Shown here: positions 1 through 13,832 of the stretch, one piece after another
Layout: each line of letters opens with the position of its first letter
Position numbering within the stretch: the stretch's first letter is position 1
Source of the DNA: Candidatus Undinarchaeales archaeon
Lineage (GTDB): Archaea; SpSt-1190; JASMDC01
Reading direction: 5' to 3'
Assembly: GCA_030753015.1 (NCBI GenBank)
Contig: JASMDC010000031.1
Location: forward strand, 1-13,832
Length of the DNA: 13,832 nucleotides
Notes under the pieces: model-generated
The model's database searches: none
The model's input: only the letters and a program-made list of their open reading frames with translations
What the model was told of the DNA's origin: nothing
Program-made: the position numbers and the translations under genes

Positions 1-53
1 ATACATTCTGCCCGATGTTCATCATCGAGAGCCTGTGCTACAAGCTACCCTAA
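1..53 (+). CDS. 3' end of an unidentified gene (partial)
   Basis: Reading from base 3, sixteen codons run to a TAA at 51-53 and encode TFCPMFIIESLCYKLP. Fourteen of the sixteen codons end in G or C, which matches the codon use of the clear genes here and is the main reason to call it coding. The other two plus frames are less convincing; one of them stays open a little further, to a TGA at 68-70. The start lies outside the window and the fragment is too short to assign to a family. It converges with argS across about 120 bases. Confidence 0.45.
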   Translation, partial: TFCPMFIIESLCYKLP

Positions 54-171
54 GGGCGTCCTTTTTCTGAGATCGCTCGACAGAACAGTAATCCGTGGTT
101 GGTAGTTTTACCAGTAGATTAGAGGGTCACTTGACTATGGGACTAGTCTACAACGATCATTCTCCAGCGTC
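54..171. other. Non-coding spacer between convergent genes
   Basis: This stretch lies between the TAA of the left-edge gene and the stop of argS. It is poorer in GC than its surroundings and has no convincing reading frame. I checked it for a tRNA and found neither a T-loop motif nor a cloverleaf. It holds a T-run at 62-66, a weak 5-bp hairpin (TGGTA/TACCA at 100-113) and an 8-bp palindrome GACTAGTC at 141-148. None of these is strong enough to name as a site. Confidence 0.5.
59..68 (+). terminator. Possible T-run terminator of the left-edge gene
   Basis: Five consecutive T, then CT, lie 8 to 15 bases after the TAA at 51-53. Archaeal RNA polymerase commonly stops at short T-tracts without a hairpin, so the position fits. 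A run of five is short and the call rests on position alone. Confidence 0.3.
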
Positions 172-2013
172 CTACATCTTCCGCAGCGCCTCGATGCCCA
201 GCAGCTCCAGGGCGTTGCGACAGGTGATGCGGAAGGCGTCCACCAGGGCGAGGCGTGCGTCCTGTACGTCCTCTTCTGCCTTGAGCACCGGCGCGTCGCG
301 ATAGAAGTCGTTGAACACCGATGCCAGGTGGTAGGCGTAGTTGGCCAAAGCATGGGGTTTTACCTCTTCAGCCGCCCGTCGTGCCTCGTCCGGGAACCGC
401 GCTATGGTCTTGACCAGAGTGAGCTCGGCAGGCTCGGTGAGCTTAGTAAGGTCGGGAAGACCGGGAGTGGCCTTCTCAAGGATGCGGCAGGCGCGTGCGT
501 GCGCGTACTGGATGTAAGGGGCGGTCTCGCCATCGAAGTCAAGCACGTCCTCCCACCGGAACACGATCTGCTTCTCGGGGAACGTGCGCACCAGGGCGTA
601 CCGAACCGCGCCTATTGCCACGGCCCGCGCGACCTGGTCCTTGAACAGGTCGTCCTCGTCCGGATTGCGCTTCTCGACCTCCTCCCTGGCCCGCTTCACA
701 GCTTCGTCGAGCACTGTGTCAGCGTCGAACCCGATCCACGTGCCCTCGCGTCCTGAGAACTTCCCCTCGGGGAGCGTGACGTGCTCGTAGGAGAGGTGGT
801 GGGAGTTGGCGAACTCCTTCTCGTGTCCAAGGGCCTTGAGCGCGTGGTACACGACCTGCTGCGGATACTTTTGCTCCATCCCGATGACGTTGACCACGAT
901 CTCGGCATGGCGCTGCTCCCATGGCTCGCCCTTCATGGCGGTCGTATACAGGTGCCGAGCATCGGGGCGGATGCCGAACTCGGTGACAGGCATGTTCGCT
1001 TCCATGAGGCCGAACTTCCACAACTGGAACGCGATGTCCTTGGCTGTGTACACCGCGGTGCCGTCAGAGCGTATGAGCACCTTGTCGTCCATCCCGTACT
1101 TGCCGAGTCGGAGCACCCATGTACCGGCACGCTCACCCTCATCATCGAGTTCTGCGATACCCGTCGACTTCAGCCGCTCGATGGCCTCGTCGAGGAGCTT
1201 GGCATGGACGATATCACTCTCGTACACCAAGAGGTCGTACAGGATGCCTAGACGGTAGGCGGTGATGAGCTGAGCCTTGACACAGTCGGTGCAGATTTCC
1301 CGGGCCCGGTCGAACACTCCTTCCTCGCCATCCTCGATGCCCTTAATGATGGCCGCGATCTCCTTCTCCACCTTCGGATTCAGCTTCTTGTTCACATCGA
1401 CGTAGAGCTTACCGAGGAACTGGTCGTACTTCTCGTCCCCGGCGTCCACGTCCTTGTTGATGATTCCCCAGATGGTGGTGGCCACCTGTTTGCCCAGGTC
1501 GTCGATGTAGTTGAGCACCTGGACGTCGTAGCCCACGCCCGTCATGAGCCTCGCCATGCAGTCGCCCATCACAGCGTTGCGTGCATGGCCCATGTGCCAG
1601 GGCTTGTTGGGATTCACCGATGTGTGCTCCACAATGACACGACGACCTTCACCGATATGCCAGGAACCGTAACCATCGTCCGTGGACTCCACGCGCTCGA
1701 GCGTCTCCTTCACAAAGACCTTCTCGTCCACGCGGAAGTTGACGAACCCGGCGCCTGCCACCTCGACCTTGGCCACGTAATGACGCTTGGACGGGAAGAG
1801 GGCGGTGATCTCCTCAGCGATGGCCCGGGGGGCCTTCTTGAGGGGCTTGGCGAGCGAGAACGCCACCGTGCACGAGAGGTCGCCGAGCTTTGGATCCGGT
1901 GGATCCTGCACCATTGTCTCCACCTCGGGCCGCTCCTTGAGCTCGAATCCTTGCAGTGCCTTCTCGAGCCCGCGAACGACTTCCTGCCGGAACCTGAACC
2001 AGACGCTTCCCAT
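172..2013 (-). CDS. argS: Arginyl-tRNA synthetase
   Basis: Class I aminoacyl-tRNA synthetase that charges tRNA-Arg with arginine in the cytoplasm; 613 residues, normal for the family. The order is an N-terminal ArgS-specific domain (about residues 5-100), then the Rossmann catalytic core with NPNKPWHMGHARNAV, whose HMGH at 140-143 is the HIGH signature. YIDDLGKQ at 169-176 matches the usual YINDxGxQ. The second signature is KFSGREG at 418-424 in place of KMSxRxG, a departure ArgS tolerates. A DALR-type anticodon-binding domain fills the last 120 residues or so and ends in LGIEALRKM. The ATG at 2013 lies about 25 bases from the AT-rich box at 2032-2043, so the message is probably leaderless. 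It diverges from tmk. The identification is firm. Confidence 0.96.
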   Translation of the reverse strand: MGSVWFRFRQEVVRGLEKALQGFELKERPEVETMVQDPPDPKLGDLSCTVAFSLAKPLKKAPRAIAEEITALFPSKRHYVAKVEVAGAGFVNFRVDEKVFVKETLERVESTDDGYGSWHIGEGRRVIVEHTSVNPNKPWHMGHARNAVMGDCMARLMTGVGYDVQVLNYIDDLGKQVATTIWGIINKDVDAGDEKYDQFLGKLYVDVNKKLNPKVEKEIAAIIKGIEDGEEGVFDRAREICTDCVKAQLITAYRLGILYDLLVYESDIVHAKLLDEAIERLKSTGIAELDDEGERAGTWVLRLGKYGMDDKVLIRSDGTAVYTAKDIAFQLWKFGLMEANMPVTEFGIRPDARHLYTTAMKGEPWEQRHAEIVVNVIGMEQKYPQQVVYHALKALGHEKEFANSHHLSYEHVTLPEGKFSGREGTWIGFDADTVLDEAVKRAREEVEKRNPDEDDLFKDQVARAVAIGAVRYALVRTFPEKQIVFRWEDVLDFDGETAPYIQYAHARACRILEKATPGLPDLTKLTEPAELTLVKTIARFPDEARRAAEEVKPHALANYAYHLASVFNDFYRDAPVLKAEEDVQDARLALVDAFRITCRNALELLGIEALRKM

Positions 2014-2031
2014 CGCATCCGATACCCCGCG

Positions 2032-2043
2032 TTAATCTTTTAA
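2032..2043. promoter_or_regulatory. Shared divergent TATA-like box, argS/tmk
   Basis: TTAATCTTTTAA is the only AT-rich element in the 54-base spacer. Its centre is about 24 bases from the argS ATG (minus) and about 30 from the tmk ATG (plus), the usual spacing for archaeal TATA boxes driving leaderless or near-leaderless messages. It is nearly symmetric (TTAA at both ends), so it could be read in both directions. No Shine-Dalgarno site precedes either start. That one box serves both genes is inferred. Confidence 0.55.
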
Positions 2044-2067
2044 TGTTACTCCCATAAGCCGGAATCG

Positions 2068-2799
2068 ATGCCGGGTTTCTTCATCTCGTTCGAGGGCGCG
2101 ACGGGTGTGGGGAAGACCACTATGGCGACCCGGCTTTGCGATACTCTCAAGGAGCGCGGCCACGACGTACTGGTGGTCCCCGAGTTCTCGGACTCGCTCA
2201 TCGGGCGCTCGATCCACGAGAGCCTAACACGCGACCCGTTCCTTCGGCTTCCGCCCCTGTCCGAGACCCTGCTGGTCACGGCCGACCGGGCGTTCTTCAC
2301 CGAGCGCGTGATCGTCCCCGCCCTTAAGCAGGGTAAGGTGGTGATCAAGGACAGGTACTACGACTCGACATACGTGTACCAGCCCTATAGGTTCGTGGAG
2401 GATGGATACCACACGAACAAGGAGCAGGTGTTCAAGTGGCTGGATGCGTTCCATGAATTCTTTGTCATCCGACCTAACATCACGTTCCTCCTGCAGGCCG
2501 GGCCCGAGGACGCCCTGAAGCGACAGGCCCTGAACAAGGGCTGGCGCATCACCAGCGAGGATGTGCGCATGGCCGAGGAGACGGCCAAGATCTACGAGGA
2601 CCTAGTCTCGCGGGATCCTGCACGGTTCATCCGCATAGATTCCTATGTGACCACGATCGACGCCGTGGCCGAGAAGGTGCTGCAAAAGACCTTGGACGTG
2701 ATGGGGAAGGACCACCACATCCACGCCCCTGACCTCTTCAAGGAGGATCTCTCCCAGAAGACGTTGGCCGACTTCGGGAACGGGAAGCCGCAGGTCTAA
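2068..2799 (+). CDS. tmk: Thymidylate kinase (dTMP kinase)
   Basis: P-loop nucleoside monophosphate kinase that phosphorylates dTMP to dTDP with ATP for DNA synthesis. The Walker A loop is GATGVGKTT at residues 10-18, right after the first strand (FFISFE). The family DRY signature is at 95-97 in KDRYYDSTYVYQ, matching the thymidylate kinase pattern DRYxxSxxAYQ. A lid-like basic stretch (KRQALNKGWR, 151-160) follows the strand ITFLLQA. At 243 residues it is longer than typical archaeal Tmk (about 200); the extra part is a charged C-terminal tail from about residue 210 with no known motif. It reads away from argS and starts about 30 bases after the shared AT-rich box. Another nucleoside monophosphate kinase of the Tmk superfamily is possible but less likely. 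Confidence 0.88.
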   Translation: MPGFFISFEGATGVGKTTMATRLCDTLKERGHDVLVVPEFSDSLIGRSIHESLTRDPFLRLPPLSETLLVTADRAFFTERVIVPALKQGKVVIKDRYYDSTYVYQPYRFVEDGYHTNKEQVFKWLDAFHEFFVIRPNITFLLQAGPEDALKRQALNKGWRITSEDVRMAEETAKIYEDLVSRDPARFIRIDSYVTTIDAVAEKVLQKTLDVMGKDHHIHAPDLFKEDLSQKTLADFGNGKPQV

Positions 2800-2856
2800 C
2801 CGGTCGACCGCTCACCACGACTCAACGTGCAGCCGCTACCGGCCGCGGGCCCAAAA

Positions 2857-2866
2857 CCAATAAATA
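2857..2866 (+). promoter_or_regulatory. TATA-like box for the 84-residue gene
   Basis: CCAATAAATA stands out in a GC-rich spacer. Its centre is about 27 bases before the ATG at 2889, which predicts a leaderless or near-leaderless message. No Shine-Dalgarno site precedes that ATG, in agreement. Confidence 0.55.
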
Positions 2867-2888
2867 CCTGTCGGGAAACCATAAGAGC

Positions 2889-3143
2889 ATGTCCGCCTGC
2901 CCGCCGATCACGATTGCGGTCACGGGGGACCCGAAGACGCTGTTCGAGCGCATCCGTAAGCATCTCACCGCCTACGGCATCGAGCTCTCGGGCGATACCG
3001 GGCACGGGGCCTTCGAGGGTAAGGGTATTGCCGGCGAGTACACCGTCACCGACAACGTCGTGACGGTCACCGTCACCAAGAAACCTCCTCTCGTCCCCTG
3101 CAGCATGGTCGAGCGCGAGCTACGGAAGCTGTTCGAGTATTAA
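2889..3143 (+). CDS. Small conserved-looking protein, unknown function
   Basis: Eighty-four residues, soluble, with no signal peptide or membrane segment. I do not recognise the family with confidence. The layout reads as a short strand (ITIAV), a helix (PKTLFERIRKHLTAYGIE), a glycine-rich turn (GHGAFEGKGIAGEY), two strands (YTVTDNVVTVTVTKKP) and a C-terminal helix (SMVERELRKLFEY). The G-x-G-I-x-G followed by V-x-D-x-V-x-V resembles the small polyhydroxyalkanoate granule-associated family (PF09650), but this is a memory of pattern, not a match. Cysteines sit at 4 and 71. It has its own TATA-like box 27 bases upstream, and its codons are GC-ending like those of its neighbours, so it is very probably real. 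It lies between tmk and a small membrane protein, which gives no functional hint. Confidence 0.72.
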   Translation: MSACPPITIAVTGDPKTLFERIRKHLTAYGIELSGDTGHGAFEGKGIAGEYTVTDNVVTVTVTKKPPLVPCSMVERELRKLFEY

Positions 3144-3170
3144 TGGCCACCGCCCACCCCGCCGATACAT

Positions 3171-3180
3171 TCTTAATACT
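3171..3180 (+). promoter_or_regulatory. TATA-like box for the 127-residue gene
   Basis: TCTTAATACT is centred about 27 bases before the ATG at 3202 in a spacer that is otherwise GC-rich. The spacing favours the first ATG (3202) over the in-frame ATG at 3223. Confidence 0.5.
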
Positions 3181-3201
3181 TCCGCCGCCCACTCCCAAGC
3201 G

Positions 3202-3585
3202 ATGGACGAGGAGCAGCCAGCGATGGACAAGGAAGCGCTCATCAAGCTCGCGGTCGCAGTGGCGGGCATCCTCCTCGTGCTGGTGGCCTCGGCGTGGCTC
3301 AATCCCGTGGAGGAGCCGGGGATCGAGGTCGTTGACCTGCAGCGCACAGGCTCGAAGGTGTTCTTCACGGTGCGCTGGTCCAACGTCCACGCTCAGGACC
3401 ATGTCCTCACAGTGTCAATCTTCCAGGATGGGAAGCGACTTATTGACCCCTCAACGTACCACATCCCGGGGAAAGCGAAGGGGGAGAAGGTGTTCTCGTT
3501 CACCGTGGACGGTGAGGCCACCTTCCGCATCGCCATCACCGATATCGGTGGTTCACCCCTGAAAGAGGTCGTTCGGCGCAAGTGA
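3202..3585 (+). CDS. Single-pass membrane protein with outer beta domain, unknown
   Basis: One hundred and twenty-seven residues. After a short charged start (MDEEQPAMDKEALIK) comes one hydrophobic segment at about 16-33 (LAVAVAGILLVLVASAWL), then about 90 residues rich in alternating hydrophobic and polar positions (VFFTVRWSNV, HVLTVSIF, VFSFTVDGEATFRIAITD). That pattern suggests an immunoglobulin-like or similar beta-sandwich held outside the membrane by an uncleaved N-terminal anchor. There is no lipobox cysteine. A second ATG at 3223 would remove seven residues; the first is preferred for its TATA spacing. It lies upstream of sepF and the prepilin peptidase, so an envelope role is plausible, but no family is recognised. 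It has no class III (type IV pilin) signal, so it is probably not a pilin. Confidence 0.75.
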   Translation: MDEEQPAMDKEALIKLAVAVAGILLVLVASAWLNPVEEPGIEVVDLQRTGSKVFFTVRWSNVHAQDHVLTVSIFQDGKRLIDPSTYHIPGKAKGEKVFSFTVDGEATFRIAITDIGGSPLKEVVRRK

Positions 3586-3610
3586 TCACGCGCGGTCTCC
3601 CGGTGGATGA

Positions 3611-3621
3611 ATCTTTATAAA
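3611..3621 (+). promoter_or_regulatory. TATA box of sepF
   Basis: ATCTTTATAAA is the best TATA box in the window. Its centre at about 3617 predicts a transcript start near 3643, leaving a leader of some 25 bases that contains the Shine-Dalgarno site at 3655-3659. Confidence 0.65.
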
Positions 3622-3654
3622 CGATCATTGCATATCTCCCAATACCACCCCCGT

Positions 3655-3659
3655 GGAGG
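3655..3659 (+). promoter_or_regulatory. Shine-Dalgarno site that fixes the sepF start
   Basis: GGAGG lies 8 bases before the ATG at 3668. An in-frame GTG at 3653 overlaps this site, so starting there would leave the site unused and add five residues (MEADI) ahead of the membrane-binding helix. Confidence 0.65.
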
Positions 3660-3667
3660 CAGACATA

Positions 3668-4027
3668 ATGGAGAAGCTCTTCGATAAGATCAAGGAATTC
3701 CTCTCGAGCAAGAAAGGTAGCTTCCGGGAGGAGCTCCCCATGGATCTCCCTGAACTGCAGCTCGCAGGCGATCCGGACCACAACCGGGCCACTATGACCG
3801 TACACTCGCTCGAGGAGCTGAAGGATACATACAACATCCTCAACGAGTACCGTGGCGACAAGATCGTGCTCATCAAGCTCGGGAAGGACATGCGGAAGAA
3901 CACATTCGCGATGAAGAAGGCCATCGACAGCTTCAAGCTGACGTGCGGCACTCGCAACGGAAGGGTCGCCGGTCTGGACGACCGCTGGCTCATCCTCCTC
4001 CCCAACGGTATCAGCATCGAGAACTAG
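3668..4027 (+). CDS. sepF: Cell division protein SepF (archaeal type)
   Basis: SepF anchors the FtsZ ring to the inner face of the membrane in many archaea and in Gram-positive bacteria. From the ATG at 3668 the protein has 119 residues. Residues 1-13 (MEKLFDKIKEFLS) form an amphipathic helix, the expected membrane-targeting segment, and a short linker follows. The SepF core covers about 40-117: strand ATMTVHSLEELKD, helix, strand KIVLIKLGKDM, a helix FAMKKAIDSFKL, and the closing VAGLDDRWLILLPNGISIE, which matches the family's G-rich turn and last strands. I chose 3668 over the GTG at 3653 for the perfect Shine-Dalgarno spacing and because it puts the helix at the N-terminus. It has its own TATA box. 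No ftsZ lies in the window. A hairpin follows the stop. Confidence 0.9.
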   Translation: MEKLFDKIKEFLSSKKGSFREELPMDLPELQLAGDPDHNRATMTVHSLEELKDTYNILNEYRGDKIVLIKLGKDMRKNTFAMKKAIDSFKLTCGTRNGRVAGLDDRWLILLPNGISIEN

Positions 4028-4068
4028 GTGTGCATGGGGGGCGCTCCGAGCGCCCCCCGCCCACACAC
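4028..4068 (+). terminator. Perfect GC-rich hairpin just after sepF
   Basis: GGGGGGCGCT (4036-4045) and AGCGCCCCCC (4049-4058) pair over ten bases around a 3-base loop. An outer GTGTG/CACAC (4028-4032 with about 4063-4068) can extend the stem. It starts directly after the sepF TAG. There is no T-run after it, so it is not a bacterial-type intrinsic terminator, and archaeal termination usually needs T-tracts. It could protect the 3' end of the message or slow the polymerase. The structure is plain in the sequence; the role is inferred. Confidence 0.5.
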
Positions 4069-4082
4069 GCTCGGGCACATAT

Positions 4083-4092
4083 CCTTTTAAAG
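4083..4092 (+). promoter_or_regulatory. TATA-like box of the prepilin peptidase gene
   Basis: CCTTTTAAAG is centred about 43 bases before the ATG at 4131. A transcript start near 4113 would leave a leader of about 17 bases with GGAG at 4118-4121, nine bases before the ATG. Unlike argS and the small genes, this gene therefore probably uses a ribosome binding site. Confidence 0.5.
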
Positions 4093-4130
4093 CCTGAACC
4101 TCCTTTCCCTCACATCTGGAGCTACTCCTC

Positions 4131-5396
4131 ATGATAGGGTTCGTGCTCGCGGCAATCGCACTGGGAGGGTGCCTTTTCGCCACTTGGTCCGATATAAAGA
4201 CCAAGGAGATCCCCAACGAGCTCAACCTTCTCCTCATTCTGGCGGGCATCTACATCCGTACCTACCACGTCATCAACACCGGAGATCATGAGTTCATCAC
4301 CACGCCGCTCGTCGTTGCTCTTCTTTACTTCCTGGGCTCGGCGGTGCTCTACTATAGCTGCCAGTGGGGCGGCGGGGACGTCAAGCTCCTCATCGCTATC
4401 GGGTGCCTGCTGGGTACCTTCCCCCAGGAGTTCTTCCATCTGCAGGACTATCTGGGATTCGAGATCCTGCCGGGGGCAGCAGCTGCCGGAATCCCCAAGG
4501 TCGCCGGTAATCCCCAATGCCTGGCACCGTGCATCGATCCACCCTGGCCGTTCTGGACCACCATGCTCTTCAACATCATGTTCGTCGGGGCCGTGTACGG
4601 CCTCATGGCCGCTCTGTACCTCGGGTTACGCAATCCCAAGGCCATCACCGAGCTGAAGCGGACTGTGCGCCGTGACGAGAAGGAGCTTGTCGTGGTGCTG
4701 GTCGGTTGTGCGATATTCATCCTGCTGGTGGGCTACGGTCTCACGAACACGATCGATCTGTCCTACTTGGCCCGATCCTGGCCACTGTACATACAGTTCG
4801 CTTTCATGTGGTTCCTTATCAAGTTCGCCCACATAATCCAGGATGTCACCATGAAGCGTGAGGTCCCGGTGGACGAGCTGCAGGAGGAGGACTGGATCGA
4901 TGAGGACGTAATCGTGGACGAGCCCGTGTTCGCCTGGGGGGAGATCCCCGGGAAGGCGGCGGAGGCCGCGCTCCTCGACCATCTACGGATGCTGGAGGGG
5001 GTGGAGCTCGCGGGCAAGGCCACCGTGAAGAAGAAGGACGATATCATCACCATTGAGGCCAAGGGACGGAAGCTCACCCTCACGCTGGAGGACAAGGGTG
5101 GGAAGGCGGTCCTCCGCGAGAAGAGATCCGTGCTCGCCGAGTACGTGGTCCGCGAGGAGGACGACGACCGCTCGGTCGTGACCCTTCCCGACCGAGAGGT
5201 AGCATCTACCTGGGACCCGGGCGTCTCCCAGGAGCAGATCGACGAGATCGTGCGCTTGGCCAAGGAAGGCCGGTTCAAGGACACAATCCGTATCAAGGAA
5301 GGCGTGCCGTTCGCTCCCGTGTTCCCCCTGGCAGTGCTGGTGAGCCTGGTATTCGGAGACGTTATCTTTTTGATTATACTGCGGTATTCTATCTAA
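4131..5396 (+). CDS. Type IV prepilin peptidase (A24) with long soluble insert
   Basis: Membrane aspartyl protease that removes the short leader of archaeal pilins, archaellins and related proteins at the inner face of the membrane. The two catalytic aspartates are in the expected places: D21 in SDIKTKEIPN after the first membrane segment and D83 in GGGDVKLL (the GxGD motif). Hydrophobic segments fall near 2-19, 31-48, 58-76, 84-96, 141-165, 186-205, 216-237 and 396-417. The last one, with PFAPVFPLAVLVSLVFGD, resembles the C-terminal element of archaeal A24 enzymes. The loop at about 98-140 holds C130 and C134. The oddity is residues 240-395: about 155 mostly charged, soluble residues before the last segment, making 421 residues where about 230-350 is usual. 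No pilin gene lies nearby. arcS begins 4 bases after its stop. Confidence 0.88.
   Translation: MIGFVLAAIALGGCLFATWSDIKTKEIPNELNLLLILAGIYIRTYHVINTGDHEFITTPLVVALLYFLGSAVLYYSCQWGGGDVKLLIAIGCLLGTFPQEFFHLQDYLGFEILPGAAAAGIPKVAGNPQCLAPCIDPPWPFWTTMLFNIMFVGAVYGLMAALYLGLRNPKAITELKRTVRRDEKELVVVLVGCAIFILLVGYGLTNTIDLSYLARSWPLYIQFAFMWFLIKFAHIIQDVTMKREVPVDELQEEDWIDEDVIVDEPVFAWGEIPGKAAEAALLDHLRMLEGVELAGKATVKKKDDIITIEAKGRKLTLTLEDKGGKAVLREKRSVLAEYVVREEDDDRSVVTLPDREVASTWDPGVSQEQIDEIVRLAKEGRFKDTIRIKEGVPFAPVFPLAVLVSLVFGDVIFLIILRYSI
5366..5379 (+). promoter_or_regulatory. Possible arcS promoter inside the preceding gene
   Basis: CTTTTTGATTATAC lies in the last codons of the prepilin peptidase gene, encoding the end of its last membrane segment. 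The TGATTATAC part is centred about 26 bases before the arcS ATG at 5401. No Shine-Dalgarno site precedes that ATG, so a leaderless arcS message from this box is plausible. Hydrophobic codons (Ile, Phe, Leu) are AT-rich anyway, so the match may be chance. Confidence 0.4.
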
Positions 5397-5400
5397 CGTC

Positions 5401-7107
5401 ATGGCCATCGTCGTCTTCAGGCGCAGAGACGGACTCGCCCGTGAGTGCTCCCTCCGCATTACCAGCGGGGACCTGCGCACTCCTGTACTTCTCCCTACCG
5501 ATGGTGCTCTCGTCTCGCCTCGACCTGATGCCCGTATGCTCTCGCATGCATCGCCAGCGGAGGCCGGTGCCGCCCTGACCGACGTGCCTTCGTTCCGGTT
5601 CACGGCCCATTCGCCTGCTGCCATTGCCCGCCCCCTGGCCCAGCGCAACGCCGATCTCCTGGCAGCGGCCGACGGACCGACCTCACTGGGCCATCTCCAC
5701 CTCACACAGCACAATGACTTACTAGACCTCCAGCTGAATGCCCTGTACGACAGCGGCGTGCCTGTCGCCTGGATACGGAATCCCGACGAGCTGACCGGTG
5801 CCGATCTCATCCGGAAGCTTATGGTCGTGAAGGAATCGCTCCCCGATGTTATCCTCATCGCGTCCACCAAACGCTTCGAGCTCATCCCCTTCCTCGTGAT
5901 GTGCGGAGTGGACGTGTTCGATCCGGTACCATTGTCGCTCGAGCCCGCCCGGGGACGCATGCTCCACGACCTGGCACCACTGGCCGTGGACGAGCCTAAG
6001 GACAAGCTCCGGACCGACACAATGGCATCCATTTCCCGCACCCTTGATCTCCTGCGTGCCGCTGTCAGAGCGGGAACGGTTCGCGAGACCGTGGAGGGCT
6101 ACTGCGCCCGTGATGTTGAGGCCATGCGCACGCTCAGGCTCTGGGACCTGGCGGACACGTCACGGTTCGCTGACCGGGCCAAGGCCTCGCCCCAGCGGTT
6201 CGTGCTGGCAGCCTCCCTGGGCCGTCCCGAGGTCGTGCGCTGGGAGCGGGACATCCGCGAGCGCTACACACCACCATCACTTTCTGTGCTCCTGCTTCTC
6301 CCTTGCTCCTACACGAAGCCCTACTCCCGCTCGCGCACCCACCAGGCCGTCCGGGAGGCGATAGGGCGGCCGGGGAGCGTGCACGAGGTCATCGTGACCT
6401 CACCCCTGGGTGCGGTCCCCCGGGAGCTCGAAGGCGTGTACCCTGCGGCCCACTACGATATCCCGGTGACCGGTACCTGGAGCACCGAGGAGATCGACCG
6501 CTCTGCCTCCCTGGTCCAGAACATCATAGACAAGGGCGCCTACGAGCGCGTGATGGGCTATCTGCCCGGTTCGTACGGGCTGGTGGCAGCAGAACTTGCT
6601 GCTCGAGGTGTGGACGTCGACGTGGCGACCGAGCTGCAGGCCTTGGCCCGCCTCCTGCCAGAGGACGCGCACGACGAGCGCCGCGCTTGGGGGAAGGAGA
6701 TGTCGCATGCTGTACTGGACATACAGTTCGGGCCCGGGACATGGAGCGGGCTCGAGCCATTCCACTACCGCAAGGGCACCCTTCGCCATCAGGACACCCG
6801 TAAGCGCCTGGCGGCGATCGACCCGGACACAGGTCTTTGGGCGCTCAATATCGCAGGGGCCCGAGCCATGGGCGACAGCCCCACGCACAGGGTGGACATC
6901 GCTCCTTTCGAGTTCAAGGCCAGTATCTTCGCCCCCGGGGTGATGGCCGCTGCAGACGGTGTACAACGGGGAGACGATGTGATAGTGTTCCGTGAGGGGC
7001 AGCTCGCGGCCGTGGGTACCGCCGAGATGACAGGACCCGAGATGGTCCGCTCCCGGCGGGGGCTGGCCATCACCGTGCGTGAGCGCGCCGATGAGGGGGG
7101 TGAGTAG
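5401..7107 (+). CDS. arcS: Archaeosine synthase subunit ArcS (TgtA2)
   Basis: ArcS works on tRNA in which preQ0 already replaces G15. With RaSEA it attaches lysine to preQ0 so that the adduct can be turned into archaeosine. The ArcS-specific motif PC-x3-KPY-x2-S-x2-H is fully present at 301-314 (PCSYTKPYSRSRTH). The protein is a diverged paralogue of TgtA: residues 10-32 align with the TgtA N-terminus, and GVDVFDP (169-175) aligns with GVDLFDS of TgtA, keeping the aspartate that is the nucleophile there. The TGT-like part is cut to about 200 residues, and TDSGGFQ and the zinc cysteines are missing, so it should not exchange bases itself. A PUA RNA-binding domain covers about 497-562. It has 568 residues and a 4-base gap from the gene before; raSEA follows two bases after its stop. 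Confidence 0.93.
   Translation: MAIVVFRRRDGLARECSLRITSGDLRTPVLLPTDGALVSPRPDARMLSHASPAEAGAALTDVPSFRFTAHSPAAIARPLAQRNADLLAAADGPTSLGHLHLTQHNDLLDLQLNALYDSGVPVAWIRNPDELTGADLIRKLMVVKESLPDVILIASTKRFELIPFLVMCGVDVFDPVPLSLEPARGRMLHDLAPLAVDEPKDKLRTDTMASISRTLDLLRAAVRAGTVRETVEGYCARDVEAMRTLRLWDLADTSRFADRAKASPQRFVLAASLGRPEVVRWERDIRERYTPPSLSVLLLLPCSYTKPYSRSRTHQAVREAIGRPGSVHEVIVTSPLGAVPRELEGVYPAAHYDIPVTGTWSTEEIDRSASLVQNIIDKGAYERVMGYLPGSYGLVAAELAARGVDVDVATELQALARLLPEDAHDERRAWGKEMSHAVLDIQFGPGTWSGLEPFHYRKGTLRHQDTRKRLAAIDPDTGLWALNIAGARAMGDSPTHRVDIAPFEFKASIFAPGVMAAADGVQRGDDVIVFREGQLAAVGTAEMTGPEMVRSRRGLAITVRERADEGGE
7095..7103 (+). promoter_or_regulatory. Shine-Dalgarno site of raSEA
   Basis: GGGGGGTGA overlaps the last codons of arcS and ends 6 bases before the raSEA ATG at 7110. 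It indicates translation from a shared arcS-raSEA message. Confidence 0.6.
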
Positions 7108-7109
7108 GG

Positions 7110-8036
7110 ATGACGTACTGGTTCTTCGAGAACGACCGGGGGCCGGAGGGACTGCTACGTTACCTCACCCTCATTCTCACCACCCGTGGCTGTTCCTGGG
7201 CCCGCGGTAAGGGCCCTTGTTTGATGTGCGGCTACCAGGCCGACGCCGATCCCGCCATATCGCCCGAGGCGGTGGTGGCACAGGTGGCAGGTCTGAGCGG
7301 CCAGCTCTCCCAGGCGGAGGGCGTGAAGCTCTATACTTCGGGGAGCATCCTGGACGAAGACGAGCTCCCGACCGACCTACGACGTGAACTGCTAGCACGC
7401 CTGGCAGCGAGCCCGGCACGCGAGATCGTGCTGGAGACACGGGCAGACATGGTCACTCAAGAGGGAGTGGCCGAGGTGCTGGCCGCCCTGCCGGGCAAGC
7501 ACGTGGAGTTCGCCATGGGACTGGAGTCGTCCAACGACGAGGTGCTCGCTCACTGTGTGCATAAACCCACACGGTTCGTCGACGTGCGCCGGGCCGCCGA
7601 GGAGATACGTCTGGCGGGCGCGGGCGTCAAGCTATATCTCCTCTTAAAACCGCCCTTCCTCACAGAAGGAGAGGCCATCGACGACTGCCTTGCGTCATGT
7701 CGCGACGCTGCCAAGATCGCTGACACTGTGACGATCAACCTGCTCAACGTGCAGAAAAGGACTCTCGTAGAAAAACTGTGGGGACGGGACGAGTACCGAC
7801 CGCCGTGGCTGTGGTCCGCGGTGGAGGTGGCCCGTGAATGCCAGGACCTGCCCGTCCGCCTCCTTATGGGGCTGGCCGGGGCCGGCAGCCGGCGCGGCGC
7901 CTACAACTGTCGACGCTGTTCCAAGCACGTGACGCGTGCTTTGCGGCATGCTGCCCTGTCGGGCGACTACTCCCTGCCGGGCCTTGCCTGTGGGTGTGAG
8001 GATGAATGGAGGGTCTATCGTGAGCTTCGAGATTAA
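7110..8036 (+). CDS. raSEA: Archaeosine synthase radical-SAM subunit RaSEA
   Basis: RaSEA is the radical S-adenosylmethionine partner of ArcS; it cleaves the lysine-preQ0 adduct on tRNA to leave the formamidine group of archaeosine. The iron-sulfur cysteines are C28, C37 and C40 in TTRGCSWARGKGPCLMCGY. The spacing is Cx8CxxC rather than the common Cx3CxxC, as expected of Elp3-like and RaSEA proteins. VKLYTSGSILDEDELP (72-87) and VLETRADMV (107-115) follow the usual order of radical-SAM barrel strands, and FAMGLESSNDEVL (134-146) is the typical G-x-ES motif. Near the end, C267, C270, C294 and C296 form a likely metal-binding set. It has 308 residues. It begins 2 bases after arcS and overlaps the start of tgtA, so the three genes are very probably co-transcribed. 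Confidence 0.92.
   Translation: MTYWFFENDRGPEGLLRYLTLILTTRGCSWARGKGPCLMCGYQADADPAISPEAVVAQVAGLSGQLSQAEGVKLYTSGSILDEDELPTDLRRELLARLAASPAREIVLETRADMVTQEGVAEVLAALPGKHVEFAMGLESSNDEVLAHCVHKPTRFVDVRRAAEEIRLAGAGVKLYLLLKPPFLTEGEAIDDCLASCRDAAKIADTVTINLLNVQKRTLVEKLWGRDEYRPPWLWSAVEVARECQDLPVRLLMGLAGAGSRRGAYNCRRCSKHVTRALRHAALSGDYSLPGLACGCEDEWRVYRELRD
8008..8013 (+). promoter_or_regulatory. Shine-Dalgarno site that fixes the tgtA start
   Basis: GGAGGG lies 6 bases before the GTG at 8020, within the last codons of raSEA. It supports that GTG over the in-frame ATG at 8002 and over an upstream GTG at 7936. Confidence 0.65.
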
Positions 8037-9975
8037 ACATAAGGACGCGCTAGGGCGTATCGGCGTGCTGAAGACCGCCAGCGGGAGCTTCGAGACGCCC
8101 ACTATAATGCCGGTGATGAATCCCAATCCCGAGAACCAGCCCATCTCCGGTCCGGACCTCTACCGGCTCGGGGCCCGGACCGTGATCACCAACGCCTATA
8201 TCATCCACTCGCACGAGGACCTCCGCGCCCGCGCCCTGGACGAGGGACTTCATAGTCTGATCCAGTTCCCAGGGCCCGTGGCCACCGACTCCGGCGGGTT
8301 CCAGATATACACCTACGGTAACGTTGACGTGGGGGCTGCTGAGATCGAAGCGTTCCAGGAGGACATCGGCTCCGATCTTGCGGTCATCCTCGACACACCA
8401 CCACCACTCGACCTTCCTAAGGCAAAGGTCCGTGCCGCGATCGATGTGACCCTGAAGCGTGCCCGTGAGAACGTGGAGCGCCGGCGAAAGGACGACGTGC
8501 TATGGTACGGTCCAGTGCACGGCCACATGTACCGGGACCTTGTGAAGCGCTCTGCTCGCGGTATCTGCGAGCTTGACTTTCCGGTGGTGGCCATAGGCTC
8601 CTCGGTCCAGATGCTCGTGCGGTACATGTTCGCTGCCCACGCACGCTCGATCGCGAACGTGCGCGAGCACTTGCCTGCCGATCGGCCCGTCCACCTGTTC
8701 GGTGCCGGCCACCCCATTTACATGGCGGCCGCGGTTATGCTGGGTGTGGACCTCTTTGACTCGGCCTTCTACGTGCTCGCCGCAAGGGACAACCGCTATA
8801 TTACCCTCTCGGGCACTCTCCGCCTCGATACGATGACCGAGTTCCCCTGCTCGTGCGAGGTGTGCAGTCGCACGACGCCCGCTGAGCTCATGAAGGCGGA
8901 CCGGGACGCACGAACCAAGGCCCTGGCCACGCACAACCTCATCGTCACTATGGAGGAGCTTGCCCGCATCCGCGAGGCCATCCGGTCGGGAACGCTCCTC
9001 GAGCTCGCCCTGCGACGGATGCGCTCACACCCCCGTATGACGGAGATCCTCGACGACTTCAAGCGGTACGGCCGGCTCATGGAGCCCTACGATCCCGTAT
9101 CGAAGCGGAGCGCTCTCCTCTACACGGGTCCTGAGGCGCGCTACCGGCCCGAGGTGGTCCGGTTCCAGCGCAGGCTCTACGATCGGTTCGACGGACCTGC
9201 ACGTGACGTGCTGGCCGTGATCCCTGATCCGGGGATGACGCCGTTCGCTTCGTCCGGGCTCCACGTACGTTCCCGTGCCTGGGTGCATACCGAGCACCCT
9301 GATGCCTCGGTCCAGTACTGCACGAGCTCTCACCTGTTCGGTGTGGTCCCCGAGCAGCTCGAGGAAGCGTACCCCGTGGCCCAATGCGTATATCCCTCTA
9401 ATGCCCGGGGACGCTCCGCCGAGGTGCGCAGGTTCATCGATGCCTTCGGTGAGCGCTACGGCACGGTCCTCGTCCTCACCGGGAAGGAACGAGTGTCAGG
9501 GAACGTGAAGGTCCCCCTCCCCGACCATGTGGAGACCGTGCGTGCACTCGCGGACCACCAGTTGTATCGGGGCGCCCGGGCACTGATACCCGATGGCTCA
9601 CGAGTGAAGCGATCCCGAAAGACCAAGCGTTTGCGTGCTGTGTACGGTCCCGATGGGGAGCTCATCGCAGCCCTCAGGGCGTCGGACCTCGCTCTTATCC
9701 CCAAGCTCTCAATCCTCGAGGCCATGCCCATAGGTGTAAAGACGGTCGTCGTCGATGACGATGCTACACCCTTCGTACGCGAGGGGCGGAGCGCGTTCTG
9801 CCGGTTCGTGGACAGTGCTGACCCGGGTATCGGAGCCAGGGACGAGGTGGCCGTGCGGGACCTGAAGGGAACACTCCTGGCCGAAGGCACTGCTCAGGTA
9901 TCGGGTCGTGAGATGATGGACCTGTCGGCCGGTGTCGCCGTCAAGGTGCGGGAGTCGATCAAGGGCGGGGAGTGA
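8020..9975 (+). CDS. tgtA: Archaeal tRNA-guanine(15) transglycosylase
   Basis: TgtA swaps guanine 15 in the D-arm of many archaeal tRNAs for preQ0, the first tRNA-level step to archaeosine. From the GTG at 8020 it has 651 residues. The catalytic domain covers about 1-345, with D90 in TDSGGFQ, D247 in GVDLFDSA (the expected nucleophile) and a zinc site of C277, C279, C282 (CSCEVC) and H305. The C-terminal part holds the archaeal extra domains and ends with a PUA domain (about 568-645), which helps reach position 15. Residues 395-455 match the ArcS region around its motif, but the PC-KPY residues are absent. The GTG has a Shine-Dalgarno site and gives an N-terminus (SFEIKHKDALGRIG) that matches family members; the longer reading from 7936 adds 28 unlikely residues. 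It overlaps raSEA by 17 bases. Confidence 0.96.
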   Translation: MSFEIKHKDALGRIGVLKTASGSFETPTIMPVMNPNPENQPISGPDLYRLGARTVITNAYIIHSHEDLRARALDEGLHSLIQFPGPVATDSGGFQIYTYGNVDVGAAEIEAFQEDIGSDLAVILDTPPPLDLPKAKVRAAIDVTLKRARENVERRRKDDVLWYGPVHGHMYRDLVKRSARGICELDFPVVAIGSSVQMLVRYMFAAHARSIANVREHLPADRPVHLFGAGHPIYMAAAVMLGVDLFDSAFYVLAARDNRYITLSGTLRLDTMTEFPCSCEVCSRTTPAELMKADRDARTKALATHNLIVTMEELARIREAIRSGTLLELALRRMRSHPRMTEILDDFKRYGRLMEPYDPVSKRSALLYTGPEARYRPEVVRFQRRLYDRFDGPARDVLAVIPDPGMTPFASSGLHVRSRAWVHTEHPDASVQYCTSSHLFGVVPEQLEEAYPVAQCVYPSNARGRSAEVRRFIDAFGERYGTVLVLTGKERVSGNVKVPLPDHVETVRALADHQLYRGARALIPDGSRVKRSRKTKRLRAVYGPDGELIAALRASDLALIPKLSILEAMPIGVKTVVVDDDATPFVREGRSAFCRFVDSADPGIGARDEVAVRDLKGTLLAEGTAQVSGREMMDLSAGVAVKVRESIKGGE

Positions 9976-9978
9976 GGC

Positions 9979-12900
9979 CTACCAGCCGCCCCCGCCGGAT
10001 CCGTCGTCCTCGCCACCTTCGGGAGCCTGCCAGCCGCCGCCCTCGGCACCACCTTCTTCGCCACCACCTTCTTCGCCACCAGGGGCCCATCCCTGCTGCT
10101 GCTGGTCGCCCCAGCCGCCACCTTCCGCTCCTTCGCCGCCCATACCGGGCATACCGCCTTCTGCTCCTTCGCCGCCCATACCGGGCATACCGCCTTCCAT
10201 GCCCTCGATGCCGCCACCCATCCCCTCCGTGACTGGCGCATCGCTCTCTTCCTCGCTGTCCTCGCCACCGACGTAGTCGGGAACCTCGGTGTCCTCGAGG
10301 TCCTCTGCAGAGGTGCCGCCGCCGCCCTGCAGGCCAGAGAGAACAGCGTACACACCTCCGCCCAGAATGGAGATGGACACCAGGCCCACCATGGCTATCA
10401 GGAGCCAGTTCGTCTCATCTTCTTCATCCGTGCCACTCATGTCGCCTGCGGCCTCTGCGGTCGGGGCTGCCACCTCTTTAGCGTCATACAGCACGTCCTT
10501 CGACTCCTTGACGTAGGAGTGCGCCACACCGTAGAGGTCCACAAAGAACACCTGGGTCCTTGACTCGGGGAAGTTGATGCGCTGTGTCATGCTGTCCTTG
10601 AGGCCCTTGTACGAGTAGGATCCGAGCTTCCTGAACGTTCGGAGGATTAGGGTGCCGTTTTCGTCGACGAGCTCCTCCGGTCCGGTGAAGTTCATGTCGC
10701 TCGGCGGGATGAACATGAACACAATCTTGGCGGTGAGGTTCGGTCGGAAGGCGCGCACGTTGTAGTTTAGGGTCTCGGAGATCTGGTTGTAGCGCTGCTC
10801 GACCTGGAACAAGGTAATGTCAGAACCGGGTAAGGCCAGGGGAACGTCGAGGGGGAAGGACTGGGCGACGTACTCGTATCCCAGCTCGTCAAAACAGTGG
10901 CTCGTGAGAGTTATGCGCAGGGGGGGTTCCGTCCCTGTGCGTTTGAGATGGAGTGGGACGCGCACGAGTTCCCCTGCGGGGATGGAACCGGTGTAGCCGC
11001 AAGCGGTACCGCATTCCAGCCCTTCTGAGAGGGTTAGGTTGAGCTCCAGGTCGAAGGCAGTGCCCTCACCGTGGTTGAACACAATGGCCTCGAGGTTCAC
11101 GTCCTCGGTTGAGTTGTAGTCGTTCTTGTCCAGCAGCCCTATGATCTCTATCTTGGGGAAGAGGCCGAAGTGGGCAGGGGCGGCGTAGAACACGTCGGTG
11201 TTATTGGCGAGGACCTCGTGGCTCTTGAGGTCCTGGTCATTGTAGGTCACCCTGGCCGGTGGGAGGTCGTAGCTCCCAAGAGCATAGGGCGTGAGCGTGA
11301 TGTTGACGCTCTTTGCCTCGCCCGCAAGGAGATCTCCGTTCCAGGTGTATTCTTCCCCCCATTTCTTACTCTCGAAGAAATCGTCACCCACAGCGGAGTA
11401 GATGGTGACGTTGTGGGCGTCGCCTTCGCCGATGTTCTCCACCATGAGAGTGAAGTTCATACCACCGAACATGGTTGTTGCGTTCGCCTTGTTATCCAGC
11501 ACCTTGAACTTTATCTCGTTGGATTGGAACTCCTGGTTGAGGCCGCCGATGTTGAGGAGAACGCGTGTGGGATCGATCGTGAAGTTTCCGGTCCGGATAG
11601 CTCGCATCTCGTAGATGTACTCGATGGTCCGGCCCTCCTTGATCTGGGGGATGTCCCTGAACCGGGCTGTATGGTCGAGGAACTCCAGGGTCTCGGACGT
11701 GGGCTCAACACAGGTGATGGCAATGTCCTCGTCGAGGTTGTTGGTGACGTGCACATAGGCACGGACGATGTCACCCACGGCAGGATTGAGGTCAGAGAGA
11801 GACTTGAGCACGATGACGTCAGGCGTTTCACCCATCTCCTTAACGATCTCCCGTCGGAGGAGGGCGACTTCGCCCTTAATGATGCGTGAGAACACTATCT
11901 GAGGGTCCTTCTCGGTGAGCACGACTTCCATATACTTGGCCGAGGCGTTCACGAGGAACTTGTTCTGGCTGGCATCGAAGTAGAGGGTGAGGAGGGGCGG
12001 GTAACTTGTTTCACCGCCGTCCTCGGGTGCCTGCATGTCATATGTGAAGTTGACGACGCCCTTTGCAGGAATGGTGCCTGAGAAACCCTTCTCTCCTTTG
12101 ACGAAGATGAAGCCGGGTGGGAGCACCTCGTTGAAAATGACATTGTACGCGGGAACGGAGCCGACGTTCATCACGTAGGCAGTTACGTTGACTACCTCGT
12201 CAATCATGGGGGTTGCGTCTGAGAACTCCCGCTCAACTACTACCTTGGGGCAACCGCAGTCCTCGCAGCAGTAGATCTTTCCGGGCGAGGGCGGCTGGCC
12301 GGGCACTTGCCGTTCCTCCAGCTCAGAGCAGATCCCGTCGCCGCAGAGGGGGCCGATGGGGAAAGATGGGAGCACCGCCGTGTGATGCCTCTTCTCGCTC
12401 ACATAGTCGCCCTCTTTAGTTATTAGGGACATGTCCATGGGTAATGATGCGTTAGCAAGAGCAGTAACGGTCAGAGTATCCGCTTTCAACAGCCCGATGC
12501 GGTTGTTACCTTCCTGCGACCGGTCGAGAATGGTATGGTCCCCGCAGAACATAAGACCGCTGATAGTTAGGTCGTTGGGGCAAATCGTCTTCAATCCTAT
12601 ATCATACAGCATAGACTGGTTAGTGATCTTGAGATTGTATCGATCGCTGTCCTTGCTACGGAATTCCATCCATCGAATAGGGATGCTAGAAATGATGCCC
12701 GGATCCTCAGGCACATCAGTACTAACGCCCGTGCTACGGAAGAACGTCTCAAGAGAATCTATTGCTTCAATAAGATTCCGAAGGGATAGGATTGATATGT
12801 ACCCTTTATTATAAACATATACACTCCCGTTCGAGAATGCCTGATAATAGAAGCCATGATCTCTCCAGCGAACTGAACGGTCACTCTCAAGCCCGAGGAT

Positions 12901-13832
12901 ATCCCGTTTCTTCACCTCCTCGGTTAATGTAGCAAAATTCATTTTGGGGAATGTCACTTCAAGTCCAAGATACTCCTTTGGGGGTAGCGAGATCTCACTG
13001 AAAATACGATGTAGCTTGACATCCCCTTCGGAACCAGTAATCACTGGAGGAACATCATTCTTGCATAATACGAGAAGCTCTGTCTTTTTTTCATAATCTG
13101 TCGAGAGGTCGATTTTCATCGACAGTATCTCTTCCTGATTTTGAAAATGGGATGTTTCGATGATATAATTAGTGAGGTTGAAATAGCTGTCAACAGGTGT
13201 TGGGAAGGTAGTATTGAGATTCTTGAATCCGGATCCCCCCGTGTTTCCGAGAAGTTCAAGTATCCCGCAACGGATGAATTCCATGGAGAAAGACTCAGGA
13301 TCAGTTAATTCGATTTCGTAGAAGGTCGAATCGGATCCGGATATTTTTGCTAGGTTGTGTATGACCGTCTCATGAATAGGGGAAATTTGGTAAATATCGT
13401 GTAGGTGCTCCTCGAGCTTGTCGAGCAGCAATTTATAGCTAATGGCAGAAGATGTGAAATTGAAGTCCGACACACGGCGAGTACCATAATGAGTATCATT
13501 CGCGTTACTAAAAGAAGTATTTACTAGGTCGATGCGTATCCTGCCGTCCAGGTGATCCTCAAACAAGAAATCCCCCTGGATAGAACGCTGGCGCCAGACA
13601 AGCTTCTTCTCATCTCGTTCGAGAATGTCATTACTCGTTCTAAATTCATCTTCGAGGGCCTGAAGATCAAGATTCGTATCCGTGTAGGCGTGTATTGTAT
13701 AGTTTGAATCCGTCGCGTTCAATGAGCGAAGGTAGACCTTTACGACGGTCTCGCCATAACGAGGCTCGTCAATACAAGTCTTTTTTTCATCCTTTTCTTC
13801 ACATGTCTGGAATTTTGTGGATTGGACATCTG
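9979..13832 (-). CDS. Giant C-terminally anchored surface protein (5' partial)
   Basis: The frame is open to the window end, so the N-terminus is missing; at least 1283 residues are present. Residue numbers count from the TTG at 13722. I see about 24 N-x-S/T sequons, all before the membrane segment (about 1105-1130), so the large part is probably outside the cell and N-glycosylated. A cysteine cluster (CGDGIC at 460-465, CCEDCGCP at 485-492) is followed by about four beta-sandwich repeats of DUF11/CARDB style (near 500-600, 640-740, 745-850, 855-960). The roughly 117-residue tail is Gly/Glu-rich with three GGGW motifs, tandem repeats and no Lys, Arg or His. The part before about residue 430 is clearly AT-richer. 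Adhesin, S-layer-associated or envelope scaffold roles are possible; I cannot name the family. The gene converges on tgtA with a 3-base gap. Confidence 0.85.
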   Translation of the reverse strand, partial: DVQSTKFQTCEEKDEKKTCIDEPRYGETVVKVYLRSLNATDSNYTIHAYTDTNLDLQALEDEFRTSNDILERDEKKLVWRQRSIQGDFLFEDHLDGRIRIDLVNTSFSNANDTHYGTRRVSDFNFTSSAISYKLLLDKLEEHLHDIYQISPIHETVIHNLAKISGSDSTFYEIELTDPESFSMEFIRCGILELLGNTGGSGFKNLNTTFPTPVDSYFNLTNYIIETSHFQNQEEILSMKIDLSTDYEKKTELLVLCKNDVPPVITGSEGDVKLHRIFSEISLPPKEYLGLEVTFPKMNFATLTEEVKKRDILGLESDRSVRWRDHGFYYQAFSNGSVYVYNKGYISILSLRNLIEAIDSLETFFRSTGVSTDVPEDPGIISSIPIRWMEFRSKDSDRYNLKITNQSMLYDIGLKTICPNDLTISGLMFCGDHTILDRSQEGNNRIGLLKADTLTVTALANASLPMDMSLITKEGDYVSEKRHHTAVLPSFPIGPLCGDGICSELEERQVPGQPPSPGKIYCCEDCGCPKVVVEREFSDATPMIDEVVNVTAYVMNVGSVPAYNVIFNEVLPPGFIFVKGEKGFSGTIPAKGVVNFTYDMQAPEDGGETSYPPLLTLYFDASQNKFLVNASAKYMEVVLTEKDPQIVFSRIIKGEVALLRREIVKEMGETPDVIVLKSLSDLNPAVGDIVRAYVHVTNNLDEDIAITCVEPTSETLEFLDHTARFRDIPQIKEGRTIEYIYEMRAIRTGNFTIDPTRVLLNIGGLNQEFQSNEIKFKVLDNKANATTMFGGMNFTLMVENIGEGDAHNVTIYSAVGDDFFESKKWGEEYTWNGDLLAGEAKSVNITLTPYALGSYDLPPARVTYNDQDLKSHEVLANNTDVFYAAPAHFGLFPKIEIIGLLDKNDYNSTEDVNLEAIVFNHGEGTAFDLELNLTLSEGLECGTACGYTGSIPAGELVRVPLHLKRTGTEPPLRITLTSHCFDELGYEYVAQSFPLDVPLALPGSDITLFQVEQRYNQISETLNYNVRAFRPNLTAKIVFMFIPPSDMNFTGPEELVDENGTLILRTFRKLGSYSYKGLKDSMTQRINFPESRTQVFFVDLYGVAHSYVKESKDVLYDAKEVAAPTAEAAGDMSGTDEEDETNWLLIAMVGLVSISILGGGVYAVLSGLQGGGGTSAEDLEDTEVPDYVGGEDSEEESDAPVTEGMGGGIEGMEGGMPGMGGEGAEGGMPGMGGEGAEGGGWGDQQQQGWAPGGEEGGGEEGGAEGGGWQAPEGGEDDGSGGGGW
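10048..10077. repeat. 15-bp tandem repeat, two copies
   Basis: ACCACCTTCTTCGCC occurs twice in tandem. It encodes GGEEG-type repeats in the tail of the large surface protein. Confidence 0.8.
10127..10198. repeat. 36-bp tandem repeat, two copies
   Basis: Two adjacent 36-base units (10127-10162 and 10163-10198) agree at 35 of 36 positions and encode the 12-residue unit GGMPGMGGEGAE twice in the tail of the large surface protein. The near-identity at the DNA level, third positions included, points to recent duplication by slippage or recombination. Confidence 0.9.

Follow-up and report, generated by a model that had tools for sequence, protein, structure and literature searches.

The giant gene at the end of the analysed window (the whole stretch of DNA studied here, 13,832 nucleotides) probably encodes a modular surface protein that gained its head through recombination or fusion close to a domain boundary, on a resident stalk. 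The composition of the gene changed abruptly at this domain boundary, and one of the two sides was host-typical. The window covers positions 1–13832 of a 42,563-bp contig (C42) in an archaeal genome bin (metagenome-type, 3.85 Mb, 98.9% complete, 5.01% estimated contamination), in which archaeal 16S had no match. A 661-kb sample (17% of the bin) was used as the genome control, and the class comparison set consisted of nine other genomes, all from families other than that of the bin. The window contains argS, a thymidylate kinase gene, a SepF-like gene, a prepilin-type peptidase gene, and the archaeosine genes arcS, raSEA, and tgtA, followed on the reverse strand by the giant gene. The composition of tgtA was host-typical (GC3s 0.77), and at roughly 35–43% it was about equally far from Hydrothermarchaeota, methanogens, and Thermoplasmata. 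The features are located as follows:

8014..9975, forward strand, tgtA (TIGR00432), convergent neighbour of the giant gene, outside the feature
9979..10480, reverse strand, single transmembrane segment, then a Gly/Glu-rich, presumably cytoplasmic tail (hydropathy; sequence)
10480..12240, reverse strand, stalk of DUF11/BatD/TRAP-beta-like repeats (Pfam PF01345, PF13584, and PF05753 above cut-off)
12246..12348, reverse strand, cysteine cluster CGDGIC...CCEDCGC between head and stalk (sequence)
12384..12441, reverse strand, composition junction, best single estimate 12414 (change-point likelihood; step beats gradient)
12415..13832, reverse strand, window part of the low-GC head, which runs on to ATG 14543 (GC3s, codon-usage distance, no homologue)

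The giant gene was 1516 codons long plus a 10-N scaffold gap, which lies inside the gene directly past the window end (13833–13842, contig C42/L007). The gene starts at ATG 14543 (contig coordinates, outside the window) with a signal-peptide-like hydrophobic leader; TTG 13722 was rejected as the start, as the gene runs on across the gap to this ATG. Taken literally, the gap shifts the frame, and automatic annotation would cut the gene in two. By simple hydropathy, hydrophobic segments were found at residues 6–24 (signal peptide) and about 1375–1393 (membrane anchor, near 10407–10351). PF01345 (DUF11) scored 52.8 bits (cut-off 24.6) and matched two stretches, the best at window-frame residues 531–589. 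From its sequence, the product is predicted to be a large single-pass surface protein with a signal peptide, a head of about 675 residues or more, the cysteine cluster, a DUF11/BatD-type stalk, a transmembrane segment, and a glycine-rich inner tail.

The preliminary description had placed a sharp composition change inside this gene near residue 430, and both the change and its position were borne out, the residue lying at about 12432 when counted from TTG 13722. The six 60-base G + C counts quoted for it were all exact on recount. The 60-base lines had a mean of 26.7 G + C (range 21–34) at 12421–13832 vs 35.8 (range 28–46) at 9979–12420. GC3s was 0.496 in the head (codons 1–704) vs 0.758 afterwards, and 0.78 in the stalk (codons 705–1390) with the Gly-rich tail left out. 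The best change point was codon 705 (12414; 2-log-unit interval 12384–12441), which is 23 codons ahead of the CGDGIC cysteine cluster and agrees with the domain boundary that had been suggested. The LLR of the step was 54.7 (permutation maximum 8.8), and neither the head nor the stalk part was split again by the change-point test at the 99% level. The change had also been described as abrupt, and a step was indeed the best fit: a linear gradient was 14 log units worse, and the data allow a transition width of up to about 220 codons. At codon positions 1 and 2, GC was unchanged at the junction (about 0.43 vs about 0.46), so amino-acid content is not the cause of the step, and amino-acid composition as the sole cause of the low GC was rejected. 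A later rise in GC at positions 1 and 2, at about 10362, is the Gly-rich tail, which accounts for the high-GC end of the gene.

For the extent of the low-GC region, given previously as 12420–13832, the low GC was confirmed but the end coordinate was not: the block covers 12415–14543, i.e. the whole N-terminal head of about 2.1 kb and at least 704 codons. GC segmentation gave a low block at 12546–14606 (GC 0.445), which ends at the start of a divergent phosphomannomutase-type neighbour gene. GC3s was low on both sides of the scaffold gap (0.48 after it, 0.52 before it). Coincidence of the junction with the gap was rejected, as both composition edges are located in continuous sequence away from it.

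In the 661-kb sample, genes of 200 aa or longer had a median GC3s of 0.77, and the lowest called gene had 0.565. The stalk was at percentile 52 of the called genes, and the head was below all those of at least 200 aa (percentile 0, counting called genes only). The home-made gene caller, trained on typical codons, overlooked low-GC genes and left out the giant one, and the scan was repeated with untrained plain ORFs. The codon-usage distance of the head was 0.164, compared with a gene median of 0.062 and a maximum of 0.135. GC, GC3, and codon usage were thus followed along the gene, as had been proposed beforehand, and the head was found to be atypical and the stalk host-typical. No within-gene step in the 216 other long genes exceeded an LLR of 25.6, and most top-ranking steps fell in roughly the first 100 codons, a region in which starts are likely to be over-extended. 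Low-GC first halves as a general trait of signal-bearing genes were rejected: no general first-half deficit was observed in 42 other such genes (≥500 aa), so the step is not a general property of them.

In the untrained-ORF scan of the 661 kb, the only comparably low sequences were a Na+/H+ exchanger gene (C31, L088 17603–19420; GC3s 0.52, lowest 300-codon window 0.505, PhoU-like C-terminal match) and toxin-antitoxin-like ORFs. These short ORFs (L025 2923–3394, L085 941–1186, and L100 14900–15124; GC3 0.45–0.53) matched the ParE toxin, VapB-type/DUF7557, and ribbon-helix-helix families. Short toxin-antitoxin-type genes are often mobile, and low GC3 in this genome is therefore at least compatible with recent acquisition. 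The codon-usage deviation of the head paralleled that of the toxin-antitoxin-like ORFs and the exchanger gene (r 0.79–0.88, although any AT shift gives some correlation), and the corresponding value for the stalk was 0.05 or less. The share of AGA/AGG among arginine codons was 0.38 before the gap and 0.13 after it in the head vs 0.74 in the low-GC exchanger gene. As the head is without the clear AGA/AGG preference of the latter, the donor may have resembled the host, or part of the head segment may be native. Two stretches elsewhere were also recorded. GC3 was uniformly lower (median 0.62) in L026 (C25) 1–20000, which includes a NadA-looking gene; this may be a contaminant contig, or else a separate compositional compartment. 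At L092 7464–17465 (C38), 10,002 consecutive N perhaps mark a masked stretch.

The head was absent from 394 genomes, including the nine others of the class comparison set, and its pieces had no match in genomes, PDB, phages, plasmids, PHROGs, viral contigs, or Pfam. No relative of the head was found when the full-length protein was compared with named genomes and viral contigs. Within its own genome, the head had no paralogue, and the stalk had only a short match on C35. The AlphaFold2 structure of the head, predicted from the single sequence, had a mean pLDDT of 35.6, too low for the model to be of use. The stalk repeats had weak relatives across many archaea, Hydrothermarchaeota included, where they follow unrelated N-termini, e.g. 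repeated propeller-like blades.

Acquisition of the head is supported by the size of the step (GC3 0.50 to 0.76, flat on each side, beyond any in the 216 other genes), by the position of the stalk at the genome median and of the head under all called genes, and by the occurrence of the stalk repeats behind other N-termini in other archaea. The 5% estimated contamination of the bin and the lowish GC3 of some other large secreted genes (0.57–0.64) count against it. The preliminary description had suggested a mosaic gene with an outer part exchanged by recombination or, as another possibility, diversified under selection by viruses or partners. The mosaic with its junction at a domain boundary stood, given the step at synonymous sites, the host-typical stalk, the atypical head, and the same repeats behind unrelated heads; the exchange itself we infer, since neither a donor nor an orthologue carrying another head turned up in the 394 genomes, nor did an empty or alternative allele. 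A lower-GC source would have supplied, via recombination or fusion, either the head alone or a longer stretch that begins with the head and reaches about 20 kb of the contig. This DNA would have been joined in frame to the resident stalk and anchor, and would not yet have drifted to host codon usage.

The next three genes are mildly atypical as well, so the head bounds, on one side, a patch of roughly 8 kb with mildly deviating composition. The three genes encode a phosphoglucomutase/phosphomannomutase, a 963-aa secreted-looking repeat-rich protein with a weak TPR match, and a 358-aa membrane protein, and have GC3 of 0.63–0.65 throughout (percentiles 4–6), as expected if a wider patch was acquired or recombines. 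A larger island, from about 12.4 to 20 kb (the head, the phosphomannomutase-type gene, the repeat-rich TPR-like surface protein, and the small membrane protein), may have been replaced with one crossover inside the giant gene. This special case of the proposed head acquisition, which does not compete with it, is conceivable but on the whole unlikely. The three successive genes at 0.63–0.65, followed by 0.75–0.81 from 23 kb of the contig, and a GC segmentation edge at 20313 are consistent with such an island, and flexible islands are known to exchange surface and glycosylation clusters, in Haloquadratum among others (PMC4033161). However, the GC3 deviation of the head was about twice that of the other patch genes (0.50 vs 0.64), a strong difference which makes a single donor in a single event not the simplest account, and GC3 of 0.6–0.65 is found elsewhere in the bin too.

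The chief rival explanation is that the head is native, old, and fast-evolving under weak constraint, with synonymous sites that drifted to an AT-richer neutral composition while the stalk kept its codon bias. The intergenic GC of the genome (0.545) is close to the third-position GC of the head, so the latter is near unselected composition, and an equal value could arise without import if codon bias were lost. The head is also without detectable homologues, and other large secreted genes are below the median GC3. Nevertheless, drift of a native head is considered improbable, as so abrupt a change inside a single open frame argues against it: codon selection linked to expression should affect head and stalk alike, and drift would not be expected to produce a 0.26 step close to a single domain boundary. 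Furthermore, the 42 other signal-bearing genes had no first-half deficit, and a secreted gene also in the low range (L091, 650 aa) was low along its entire length. An assembly or binning artefact, in which a low-GC part of another organism was wrongly joined, might be suspected from the metagenome-type bin with 5.01% contamination and from the gap inside the head, but it is very improbable, as the gap is at neither of the two composition edges, the frame is open across a junction that falls between recognisable modules, and the composition returns to the resident type further along the same contig.

The proposed acquisition of the head has counterparts in known systems. In the VARTIG large Ig-domain proteins of Thermococcales (arCOG07710), the C-terminal Ig domain varies, as shown by many related genomes (PMC8416519). 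These are also large secreted archaeal proteins in which one part of the gene has apparently been exchanged between strains or species and the rest kept, but the varying part is C-terminal there, whereas here it is the N-terminal head that differs, by composition, in one genome. In replacement flexible genomic islands for surface layers, such as the Haloquadratum S-layer cluster, exchange of whole gene clusters was shown by strain comparison (PMC4033161). Both cases have a surface-protein region with a recombination-like edge and a sugar-phosphate mutase gene nearby; the edge is however inside one gene in the present case and was read from a single strain. The DUF11/BatD-repeat surface proteins of Hydrothermarchaeota and other Euryarchaeota (such as L064, L065, and L068) likewise have a repeat stalk and a transmembrane segment behind an N-terminal head, but their head domains are different, they are 554–716 residues in total, and they resemble the giant protein in the stalk only (21–30% identity for these three). 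New heads are joined to existing stalks in many surface proteins, and the acquired head most likely follows this pattern.

Judging by the architecture alone, a cell that carries a new head on an unchanged stalk would bind or display something else at its surface. A composition step within one open frame is a cheap marker of outer-domain change in the surface proteins of uncultured archaea. The marker is strong here, is located at a module boundary, and predicts different heads on the same stalk, with the junction near 12414.

In the 661-kb sample, roughly a dozen long ORFs together contained 19 clusters similar to CGDGIC...CCEDCGC. CGDG-type clusters recurred in large, mostly secreted-looking proteins (L027, L081, L086, L091, L093, L095, and others). 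It is a quite speculative idea, and one with little probability, that the CGDG...CCxDCGC cluster, which about a dozen large secreted proteins carry either inside their modules or at the joins of these, acts as an exchange joint for head swapping and thereby diversifies the archaeal surface by head shuffling. The DNA at the junction had only 19–29 base matches to other sampled sequence, and its matches to cysteine-cluster genes fell inside the clusters, owing to the shared cysteine motif.
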